Shown one piece after another: positions 58,857 to 64,000 of a stretch of DNA of 64,000 nt (positions are counted from its first letter, which is position 1; each line of letters opens with the position of its first letter). This DNA is from Gammaproteobacteria bacterium. Lineage in GTDB: Bacteria; Pseudomonadota; Gammaproteobacteria; Steroidobacterales; Woeseiaceae. The translations under genes were made by a program, and so were the position numbers. The notes beneath the pieces were generated by a model. The model was not told the origin of the DNA. It saw nothing but the letters and a program-made list of their open reading frames with translations, and ran no database searches. The stretch spans positions 30,445 to 94,444 of the forward strand of contig JAACFB010000007.1 in NCBI GenBank assembly GCA_009937615.1, given 5' to 3'.

Positions 58857-59017
58857 CCGTTGTCTCCGAGCGCTTTAACGCGTACTTCGATATCTCTGTA
58901 GACCTGCCGATGACGCGCCCGTGCGCGCCACTCGCAAATCGCGATCACTATGGCTGTTAATACGAAACAGCTCCATACGTAGGCGCCGTAACCGCCCATC
59001 GACAGTAATTCCATCAT
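58853..59017 (-). CDS. ccmD: Cytochrome c maturation protein CcmD (not in supplied track)
   Basis: Reverse-strand translation MMELLSMGGYGAYVWSCFVLTAIVIAICEWRARARHRQVYRDIEVRVKALGDNG*; single TM, MGGYGAYVWSC typical; between ccmC and ccmE with overlapping stop/start. Confidence 0.92.
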   Translation of the reverse strand: MMELLSMGGYGAYVWSCFVLTAIVIAICEWRARARHRQVYRDIEVRVKALGDNG

Positions 59018-59769
59018 TTCTTCTCTACCGCTGACGACAGCACGAGGTGCCGTACCCAGCGGGTACGGCGTTCCCGGTACAAGACCTCAGTCCTTACACG
59101 GCGCAACAATAGCGCACCAAAAATGAGGGTAAAACCCAGGATCATAGCAAGCAGCGGATACAACATCGCCGCATCCATGGCCGGGCCGCCTTTTTTCATC
59201 AGCGTCGGCCCCTGGTGCAGCGAACTCCACCACTCGACCGAAAAATGTATGATCGGGACGTTCACCGCACCGACGAGGGCGAGCACGGCACTCGCACGAT
59301 CGGCCTTTGCCGTATCGTCAATCGCCCCGCGAAGCGCCATGTATCCGAAATATAGAAACAGCATCACCAGTTCCGAGGTTAGCCGGGGATCTCCCCATTC
59401 CCACCAGGTTCCCCACATTGGACGGCCCCATATCGAGCCGGTTGCGAGCGCGAGAAACGTGAACCACGCACCGATGGGAGCCGCTGCAGCGGCGACCGCA
59501 TGTGCAAGCTTCAGGCGCCATATCAGGCCGATGCCGGCGCTGATCGCCATGATCGAATAAGCCATCAACGACAAGTAGGCCGACGGCACGTGCACGTAGA
59601 TGATGCGGAACGCGTCGCCCTGCTGGTAATCGGGTGGCGCAAGCAACAGCCCCCCGTACAGACCGTAGAAGATCAAAATCAGCCCCGGCAAGAAGAACCA
59701 GGGAATGATCTTTGCGGCCAGGCCATAAAAGTGCGGCGGTGAGGCCAGCTTATGAATGAATTTCCACAT
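59014..59769 (-). CDS. ccmC: Heme exporter protein CcmC
   Basis: DYQQGDAFRIIYVHVPSAYLSLMAYSIMAISAG, ATGSIWGRPMWGTWWEWGDPRLTSELVM. Confidence 0.97.
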   Translation of the reverse strand: MWKFIHKLASPPHFYGLAAKIIPWFFLPGLILIFYGLYGGLLLAPPDYQQGDAFRIIYVHVPSAYLSLMAYSIMAISAGIGLIWRLKLAHAVAAAAAPIGAWFTFLALATGSIWGRPMWGTWWEWGDPRLTSELVMLFLYFGYMALRGAIDDTAKADRASAVLALVGAVNVPIIHFSVEWWSSLHQGPTLMKKGGPAMDAAMLYPLLAMILGFTLIFGALLLRRVRTEVLYRERRTRWVRHLVLSSAVEKK

Positions 59770-59780
59770 CGGGTCGGATT

Positions 59781-60479
59781 CTACTCGTTACTGATACGTA
59801 ATGCGGCTGCGATTGCAAAGGGCGCCAGTGACACAATTAGCACAGCATAGGCCGCGAGAAAATACAGGCCCCCGGCCACAACGTCGCCGGCAGCCGCGAG
59901 TGAAACGGTTCTGGCACCAAAGATCAACAAGGGCATCGCGAGCGGCAGGATCAGCAAACTCAATAACGCCGTACCCCGATGCAGACCAACCGTCAGCGCC
60001 GCACCGATTGAACCGAGCAGGCTGAGGCTGATCGTTCCGAGCAGGAGTGTCAGCATAAGGACCCCCATGACGGACGCAGGCATTCGAAACGTCATACCCA
60101 GGATCGGAGCAACAATTACAAGCGGCAGGCCGCTGGTTAACCAATGTGCAATAGTCTTACCGAGCGACAGCGCGGCAAGAGGAACCGGACTTACGAGCAT
60201 CTGCTCGAGACTGCCGTCTTCGAAGTCCGAAACGAACAGACTGTTCAGCGACAGTAACATCGCCAGTAAAGCAGCAACCCACAGCACGCCCGGGCCGCTG
60301 AATTCCAGCTGCTCCGCACTGGGGCCGACCGCCAGCGGAAACAATGTCGCAACCATCGCGAAAAAAAACAGCGGATTCAGTACGTCGCCCGGGCGTTTCC
60401 ACGCGAGAAACAAATCGCGTTTCGCAACGGCCATCATTCCGCGGCCGAGGCCCGGCATTTCTGGTTGGTTGTCAGTCAT
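59781..60479 (-). CDS. ccmB: Heme exporter protein CcmB
   Basis: KRPGDVLNPLFFFAMVATLFPLAVGP, GVLWVAALLAMLLSLNSLFVSDFEDGSLEQMLVSPVPLAAL. Confidence 0.96.
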   Translation of the reverse strand: MTDNQPEMPGLGRGMMAVAKRDLFLAWKRPGDVLNPLFFFAMVATLFPLAVGPSAEQLEFSGPGVLWVAALLAMLLSLNSLFVSDFEDGSLEQMLVSPVPLAALSLGKTIAHWLTSGLPLVIVAPILGMTFRMPASVMGVLMLTLLLGTISLSLLGSIGAALTVGLHRGTALLSLLILPLAMPLLIFGARTVSLAAAGDVVAGGLYFLAAYAVLIVSLAPFAIAAALRISNE

Positions 60480-61090
60480 TGGAGCTGAATCGTGTGTACC
60501 GGAAAATCGATTTGAATATCCTGATGGGCTGCCATGATAACCATTCCGCCGCGAGCCAGGTGCTCACTGACCAGCGTCATCACAAGCGACCGGCCCTCGC
60601 GGTCCAGGTTGGTGACCGGCTCATCCATCATCCAGAGGGTGGCCGCCGACATCAACATCCGCGCCAACGCTACTCGCCGCTGCTGCCCCGCCGACAAGGA
60701 CCGCACCGGCAGTCGTTTCAGCCGGTTGATATTGAGGCGAGTCAATATGTCGTCGAGATCGTGACGGGAGTCCCGGCGTAGCGCCGATTCGAAGCGCAGA
60801 TTCTCGACCAGCGACAGGTCGGCCTTGAATCCGACCCGGTGCGCCATCCAGACCAATTCGTTGTTAAAGACCTGCCGTTGCCGGCGAACCGGCTGTTCAT
60901 CCCAGTAGATTTCACCGGTCTCGAGCTCGATCAGGCCCGCAATTGCGCGTATCAGGCTCGTCTTGCCGCTGCCGTTGCAGCCCTCGAGCAGCAGCAATTC
61001 ACCCGGGTTCAGGGCGAAGCTCAGGTTTTCAAAAAGGCATCGCTCACCCCGGAACAGCGTCAGGGAGTCTGCCGTTAACTTTGCCGTCAA
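60476..61090 (-). CDS. ccmA: Heme exporter ATP-binding protein CcmA
   Basis: LLLLEGCNGSGKTSLIRAIAGL, LSAGQQRRVALARMLMSAATLWMMDEPVTNLD. Confidence 0.96.
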   Translation of the reverse strand: MTAKLTADSLTLFRGERCLFENLSFALNPGELLLLEGCNGSGKTSLIRAIAGLIELETGEIYWDEQPVRRQRQVFNNELVWMAHRVGFKADLSLVENLRFESALRRDSRHDLDDILTRLNINRLKRLPVRSLSAGQQRRVALARMLMSAATLWMMDEPVTNLDREGRSLVMTLVSEHLARGGMVIMAAHQDIQIDFPVHTIQLQ

Positions 61091-61339: not shown

Positions 61340-62638
61340 GTGGGGGGCAAGCTTATGGATCTTGGCGCAGCCGGGCTCAATGAACAACCCTTTCGAACTC
61401 ATGGCAAACCGCTGTCGGTCATCCTCTATGCGTCCCACCGGCAAGCCCTGAGACGGCTTGAGGAGGTCCGCGAGGTCCGTGACGGCTTGTGCCTGGTGCA
61501 GGGACCTGCCCTTTCCGGAAAGTCCACCCTGGTTCGCGCTTTTGTTGACTCCGTCGCCGAAGACGTGGCCGTTGCCGTCGTCGACGCTCGCGGCCTCGAC
61601 ACGGCGCAGCTGCTGGAAGCAATCGTCACCGGGTTCGGCTATGTGATGGAACAGAGCTCGGTGAGTGAGTTCCTTGCCATGCTGCGCGTCTTTTGTTTGC
61701 AGCAGGCCAGTTCAAATGAGCCCCCGATCCTGATCATTGAGAATACCCAATCGCTGAACCCGAATGCCCTGCAAGTTCTGTGCGAACTCGCCGAGTTGAA
61801 CGCCCGGGCGGGAAGCGCCATAAAAATCATTCTCGTGAGTGATCGGTCTCTGACCTCGGTTATCCAGGCGCCCGCGACGAAAGTCATTAAGAAACGCCTG
61901 ACGCATAATTTGCACATGCACCCGATGACTCGTTTGGAGGCGACCGAGTTTCTGTACAACAAGCTTCGCGCAGCCGGAAGTCAGTCCCCGGAGTCCGTAT
62001 TCCCGGTCGCGATCTGTCATGAGCTATGGCAGGCATCCGGCGGCTGGCCCGGCATTCTCGATCGCGTCGCGTTGCTGGCCCTTTCACGAGCCGACAAGCT
62101 TCCCGTGACTGCCCGGTGTATCGAACACCCGGCGCTGCCTCGGGGAACCTGGGCGCACGCGGCGCACAATGATGCGACCGAGGACACAGGATCGCCGCCA
62201 GGGTTGCCGGAACTCTATGTGACACACAACGGCCAGACCCTGAGCGAACTTTGCTTCGATAGGCATCGCTTCCTGATCGGACGCTCCCAGCATAACGATA
62301 TCCCTATATCGAGCAATTTTGTAAGCCGCCACCATGCCATGCTGGTACGAAATGATGGGGCAACATTTCTAATGGACCTCAATAGCACCAACGGGACTTT
62401 CGTCAATTCGAAACGGGTGTCGATCCAAGCGTTGATCCACGAAGACATTATCTCGATCGGCAACCACCGGATTAAATTCAGCGACCCGTCGGCCACAAGC
62501 CGAAGAACCCTTGAGGCCGTAGACGTTGCCGATACCGTGATAATGAAGACGCTCGAGGATATGCGAAAACTGCTGACGAATGAGAATACGCAGGTTATAA
62601 GAACCGCCACCGAGAACCTGCCTACCTCTGGCATCTAG
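61340..62638 (+). CDS. ExeA/MshM-like AAA ATPase with C-terminal FHA domain
   Basis: P-loop [34 protein letters not shown] segment [50 protein letters not shown]. Start may be 61355. Confidence 0.85.
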
Positions 62639-63213
62639 GCGAAGAATTTTTCCTTGAAGTGCTTTCGGCACATCGACACATACCGGTCGTTACCGCCGAT
62701 TTCAATTTGCGAACCCTCTCGGATCGCGGCGCCATTCTCGTCGAAACGAACTACCATCGTCGCCTTTGTGCCGCAATGACAGATTGCTTTTAGTTCCTTG
62801 AGATTGTCAGACCAGGCAAGCAGGTACTTGCTGCCCTCGAACGGCTCTCCCTGGAAATCGGTCCGCAAACCATAGGCAAGAACAGGAATGTTTAGTTTAT
62901 CTGTCACCTCACCCAGCTGAAAGACCTGCTCCTTTGTCAGGAACTGTGCTTCGTCAATCAGGATGCAGTGCAGTGGCGCCTCGTCAAAACGTTCTTCGAT
63001 CAACCGCAGCAGATCGTCGTCGGGGCTGAATGTCGTCGCTTCTGATTCGATGCCAATGCGGGACGTCACTTTACCGACTCCATAGCGATGATCGAACTCG
63101 GGCGCCAGCACGAGCGTGTTCATGCCCCGCTCTTTGTAGTTGTAGCTGGACTGAAGAAGCGCGGTCGATTTTCCCGCATTCATCGATGAATAATAGAAAT
63201 AGAGCTTCGCCAT
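62635..63213 (-). CDS. tdk: Thymidine kinase
   Basis: [82 protein letters not shown]. Confidence 0.96.
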
Positions 63214-63307: not shown

Positions 63308-63523
63308 TTACAGCCGTTTCAGCGTCGCGAGGGTGTTTCGGGCTGCCGCGCGGCTCGGCCTGGCACAGCCGCTGCAAAGCGAACGCAGTTTGTGGCGCGG
63401 CGACACGACCTGGGGAACCGGAGTCACCCTGCCTGCCCGCAAACAGCGACTGCATATGACGAGGTCCGACAAAAGGCCCAGCAGGCGAAAGTCAACTGTG
63501 GCTGAACGGGCTGCGGTCTTCAT
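63308..63523 (-). CDS. Small putative zinc-ribbon protein, 71 aa
   Basis: Two CxxC pairs ([10 protein letters not shown] and [10 protein letters not shown]) about 27 residues apart; GGAGAG five nt upstream of the ATG. Confidence 0.5.
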
Positions 63524-63880: not shown

Positions 63881-63936
63881 TGGTGCCCGGGGCCAGACTC
63901 GAACCGGCACGTCCTTTCGGACAGCGGATTTTAAGT
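63881..63936 (-). pseudogene. 3' half of a tRNA-Leu(UAA) gene (putative att remnant)
   Basis: Minus strand ACTTAAAATCCGC TGTCCGAAAGGACG TGCCGGTTCGAGTCTGGC CCCGGGC ACCA: anticodon loop CTTAAAA, 3' anticodon stem TCCGC, variable arm GTCC-GAAA-GGAC, T arm GCCGG-TTCGAGT-CTGGC, acceptor 3' strand CCCGGGC and ACCA. No D arm or 5' acceptor strand lies upstream. Confidence 0.85.
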
Positions 63937-64000
63937 TCTGTATTTGCGCAAATTTAGACAAATCTCCACAAACTGAAACTAATAAGATCAATAAGTTGCG

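Follow-up and report, generated by a model that had tools for sequence, protein, structure and literature searches.

A displaced tRNA-Leu(UAA) fragment upstream of tdk, a probable attachment-site scar of a mobile element in a Woeseiaceae draft genome

Why does a chromosomal contig end, just upstream of tdk, on the 3' part of a tRNA gene whose 5' half is missing? The stretch analysed here, hereafter the window, covers 64,000 bases (positions 30445-94444 of contig C24) of a draft genome of 3.36 Mb in 94 contigs, estimated to be 89% complete, and the contig stops at window base 64000, i.e., 64 bases past the fragment. A preliminary description had read the fragment as 56 nt of tRNA-Leu(UAA) on the minus strand, from the anticodon loop to CCA, with the 5' half replaced by AT-rich sequence; it proposed the attachment-site scar of an integrated element lying at higher coordinates, and called for a search for a second copy within an intact tRNA-Leu(UAA) and for the empty site in relatives. 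Both searches were successful, and these claims hold.

The tRNA-Leu fragment, its intact counterpart and the empty site

The fragment corresponds to nucleotides 32-87 of tRNA-Leu(UAA); it begins where the anticodon loop does, runs to CCA, and is identical to the intact copy of the same genome at 55 of 56 positions. The sole mismatch, C to T, lies in the T stem, on its 3' strand; of the two copies, that in the scar is the likelier to have changed, since it is free of selection. Judged by the alignment, the match is not due to chance, as the next best ungapped match of the 56-mer within the window reaches only 30/56 identities. No tRNA 5' half adjoins the scar, the GC content of the next 64 bases is 33% versus 57% for the whole window, and ARAGORN predicts zero tRNA genes over the 64 kb.

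The intact counterpart lies on another contig (C71), where ARAGORN calls it tRNA-Leu (taa), in agreement with the anticodon read at the scar, and it is the sole complete tRNA-Leu(UAA) found in the genome by similarity search. On its 5' side are tRNA-Cys, tRNA-Gly, pgsA, and uvrC; on its 3' side, 1,257 bases of non-ancestral DNA extend up to the contig start. A displaced tRNA fragment and a restored tRNA copy are, thus, found as expected for the two ends of an integrated element, each on its own contig (Table 1).

The uninterrupted site joining both flanks was found in eight congeners (G015, G028, G029, G032, G064, G071, G086, and G089), where 410-457 bp, free of any tRNA-Leu fragment, separate the 3' end of tRNA-Leu from tdk. 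In four of them (G029, G032, G064, and G071), uvrC, pgsA, tRNA-Gly, tRNA-Cys, tRNA-Leu, and tdk are consecutive on a single contig, and in G029 the FHA/ATPase-like gene and ccmABC come after tdk; ORFs similar to the small ORF upstream of tdk also precede tdk in relatives (L047 and L134). Closing C71:1258 onto window 63880 yields this very order, uvrC-pgsA-Gly-Cys-Leu(UAA)-tdk-FHA/ATPase-ccmABC; the DNA between the scar and the C71 inner end is, therefore, foreign to the site, and C24 and C71 probably carry the two ends of one element. The orientation of the scar relative to the empty sites places this element to its right.

Table 1. Features of the window, of contig C71 and of compared loci.
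Feature	Position	Strand	Basis
ccmA, ccmB, ccmC, flanking chromosomal anchor	59014..61090	-	names by reading ORFs; synteny with relatives
ATPase/FHA-like gene, flanking chromosomal anchor	61340..62638	+	name by reading ORF; synteny
tdk (thymidine kinase), chromosomal gene adjoining the empty site	62635..63213	-	NF003300 5.6e-92, PF00265 5.5e-56; synteny
Small ORF with two CxxC pairs, upstream of tdk	63308..63523	-	read from sequence; ORFs of L047 and L134
Displaced 3' fragment of tRNA-Leu(UAA), nt 32-87, attR-type scar, putatively the host's original 3' half	63881..63936	-	98% identity to C71:1258-1344
Putative inner end of integrated element, cut by contig end, AT-rich	63937..64000	.	contig end, GC, repeats
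SAM-I/IV riboswitch RF01725	C71:38-141 (L138)	+	66.9 bits (gathering score 41.1)
Orphan ORF (L004, about 266 aa)	C71:200-1000		
Short ORF	C71:984-1160		
Intact tRNA-Leu(UAA)	C71:1258-1344	-	ARAGORN
Other RF01725 copies, this genome (G000)	C83:4479-4579; C86:39137-39239		
RF01725 copies elsewhere	G001:C18:917-1016; G034:C92:10577-10682; L143:1496-1583 (G064, cut by contig end)		
G001 tRNA-Leu(UAA) 5' fragment, intact copy, 3' fragment	L034:1589-1627 (C40); L152:9299-9385 (C42); L049:6364-6421 (C29)		
G062 element, intact tRNA to fragment	L134:6568-16263		

The reading that we favor, with a probability of roughly 0.92, is that a mobile element integrated in the anticodon loop of tRNA-Leu(UAA), the intact C71 copy being attL and the scar attR. 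The attP of the element would carry the 3' part of tRNA-Leu(UAA), and recombination, most probably catalyzed by a tyrosine integrase, would have taken place at the anticodon loop of the host gene directly upstream of tdk; at one end, the tRNA gene would then be restored by the 3' part that the element brought, and the 3' part native to the host would be displaced to the other end as the scar. The element would span from window position 63937 to C71 base 1257, with its middle either unassembled or unbinned.

Integrase and cargo at the inner ends

The preliminary description had also expected an integrase together with the intact tRNA-Leu at one end of the element; the tRNA was found there, whereas no integrase was found on C71:1-1257. 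Nor was the element's own integrase found in this assembly, 89% complete, in which PF00589 detects two genes only, XerD, followed by a dsbC-like gene, and XerC, followed by hslV, both named by gene order and ORF reading. Integrases are seen in the elements of six congeners and, as C71:1-1257 has none, the tRNA-side end of the present element is built differently from theirs. We infer a tyrosine recombinase as its integrase, and an element that is, or once was, excisable.

Both inner ends share the short motifs CAACTTATTG and TTTGCRCA, and TTTGCGCAAA sits next to the crossover in the last 64 bases of the window; a 10-mer shared between the inner ends was obtained in 1.2% of shuffles. As a guess, TTTGCGCAAA, CAACTTATTG, and TTTGCRCA are possible integrase-binding sites. 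The exact scar junction has no match among genome contigs, and neither the last bases of C24 nor C71:1-1257 has other copies in this genome except for the riboswitch, so that no interior contig can be linked to the element.

What C71 does carry in place of an integrase is a SAM-I/IV riboswitch standing before an orphan ORF and then a short ORF, both read towards the tRNA. No relative of the orphan protein turned up among 296 other relatives, 368 other genomes of the class, plasmids, phages, or genome contigs, and PHROGs, Pfam, NCBIfam, and PDB sequences gave no match; a CHC2-like zinc finger suspected by eye at its C-terminus was dropped, as Pfam returned nothing. The short ORF gives a TAT-signal match under the Pfam cut-off and resembles a 196-aa protein found behind a similar riboswitch in G001 over the 54 N-terminal residues of the latter, so that it may be a truncated copy of that protein.

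RF01725 reaches the cut-off in only 3 of 73 genomes of the genus, with three copies here and a single one in each of G001 and G034. Part of the stretch past the aptamer is also conserved between copies, whereas the genes behind differ. Around the C83 and C86 copies, the genes look ordinary and there is no tRNA close by, and only the C71 copy is placed inside the tRNA-Leu element. One speculative scenario, which we consider doubtful, is that the element represents an undescribed lineage in which the riboswitch, before orphan genes, would sense the host S-adenosylmethionine, and that mobile DNA has spread this riboswitch in the genus. A riboswitch before an orphan gene is, in any case, more curious than the scar itself.

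Insertions at the same site across the genus

Sixty-one members of the genus gave a tdk match, and we compared the tdk loci of 60 of them. A tRNA-Leu 3' fragment lies upstream of tdk in about 14 of these 60 loci, this genome included, and all fragments begin at nt 29-33, at the anticodon loop, the one in G069 being weak (77% identity). In G001, G006, G014, G016, and G063, 390-437 bp separate the end of the fragment from tdk, and the fragment thereby stops approximately where the tRNA does in the empty sites. A tyrosine integrase-like sequence directly follows the intact tRNA-Leu in G001, G006, G014 (where the contig end cuts it), G016, G020, and G062; the integrases of G020 and G006 may be broken, as their reading frames are interrupted. 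Two elements are contiguous from the intact tRNA to the fragment, spanning about 4.1 kb in G020 and about 9.7 kb in G062. The latter encodes an integrase (PF00589, 1.1e-32), an HK97-type major capsid protein (PF05065, 1.8e-13), a D12-class DNA methyltransferase, and a DndB-like protein, and may represent either a phage satellite or a decayed prophage.

The neighborhood shows further irregularities. The spacing from tRNA-Leu to tdk is 1 to 14 kb in many congeners, some of them without a detectable fragment, and several (L037, L039, L052, L054, L102, and L129) have 1.5 to 5 kb of additional DNA between tRNA-Cys and tRNA-Leu, so that the neighboring tRNA genes also seem to be insertion sites. G001 carries three pieces of tRNA-Leu(UAA): a 5' fragment (nt 1-39, one mismatch) that follows tRNA-Cys, an intact gene, on a different contig, with an integrase after it, and a 3' fragment (nt 30-87, zero mismatches) before tdk; CGCAAATCTCCTCG occurs beside the 5' fragment and again upstream of the intact tRNA-Leu. 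This gene seems to have been entered twice, which would make a 5'-type insertion and a 3'-type insertion side by side. A shorter 3' fragment (nt 63-87, from the T arm to CCA) is found about 165 bp past the intact tRNA-Leu in G013, G026, and G036 (L108, L041, and L126), and also near a contig end in G023 (L112); it may mark another type of crossover, located at the T loop, or else an old scar that these genomes share.

Insertion into the tRNA-Leu(UAA)-tdk interval has, thus, recurred within the genus, through different elements whose sizes start at about 4 kb. Knowing this aids the mapping of mobile DNA, and it may explain the contig breaks found there in several of these genomes.

Alternative readings and comparison with known islands

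Three points count against the favored reading: C24 and C71 are not physically joined in the assembly, no integrase other than XerC and XerD is found in this genome, and nothing related to the orphan protein connects it with a known mobile element. An alternative view is that the scar is a relic of an older element, since decayed or replaced, and that the DNA to its right or beside the C71 tRNA is not what made it. Repeated entry into the site, with its long and sometimes fragment-free gaps and its insertions between tRNA-Cys and tRNA-Leu, fits such a history, as does a C71 inner end devoid of the integrase found in six congeners. However, the scar and the intact copy differ by a single base, and the two inner ends have the CAACTTATTG and TTTGCRCA motifs in common, short as they are; we, thus, regard an older relic as unlikely.

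The other two readings start from the position of the fragment so close to the end of a draft contig. That an assembly chimera or a binning error created it there is highly improbable, as 13 other genomes have the same fragment, with the same start, upstream of tdk, and in some of them (G020, G060, and G062) it lies far inside a long contig. One has to remember, too, that a group I intron occurs in the anticodon loop of tRNA-Leu(UAA) in some bacteria: tRNA species and loop are the same here, and an intron could split the gene with the 5' half just past the window. Yet the tRNA-Leu(UAA) on C71 is complete and uninterrupted, as are the intron-free genes at the empty sites of relatives; the fragment retains the whole anticodon plus nt 32-34, so that the two halves would overlap; and Rfam has no match at the window end, which covers just 64 bases of the would-be intron. 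We, therefore, rejected the intron, whose probability is close to nil.

Integration in the anticodon loop by a mobile element, thus retained, makes the scar a real but ordinary example of a well-described tRNA-gene island, by a textbook mechanism; its value lies in fixing the two ends of a mobile element lost from the assembly. Islander (PMC4383910) describes integration as splitting a tRNA gene that the element restores, the displaced fragment marking the far end, with crossovers at the anticodon loop, the T loop, or the T/acceptor stem junction; it counts 3760 islands with a 3' fragment versus 159 with a 5' fragment, and 2083 anticodon-centered ones, the 3' fragment being the common type at the anticodon subsite. 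By its identity block, from nt 32 to CCA, the present site belongs to the anticodon subtype with a 3' fragment. Like Islander islands, it shows an intact tRNA and a displaced 3' fragment at the two ends and a crossover in the anticodon loop; the att anatomy is no different, only the middle and the integrase being absent from the assembly. With the congener elements (G001, G006, G014, G016, G020, and G062), it shares the tRNA gene, the crossover point, and the chromosomal neighbors, but their inner end sequences differ from those found here, and in the place right behind the intact tRNA, where theirs is a tyrosine integrase, this element has a SAM-I/IV riboswitch and two ORFs.
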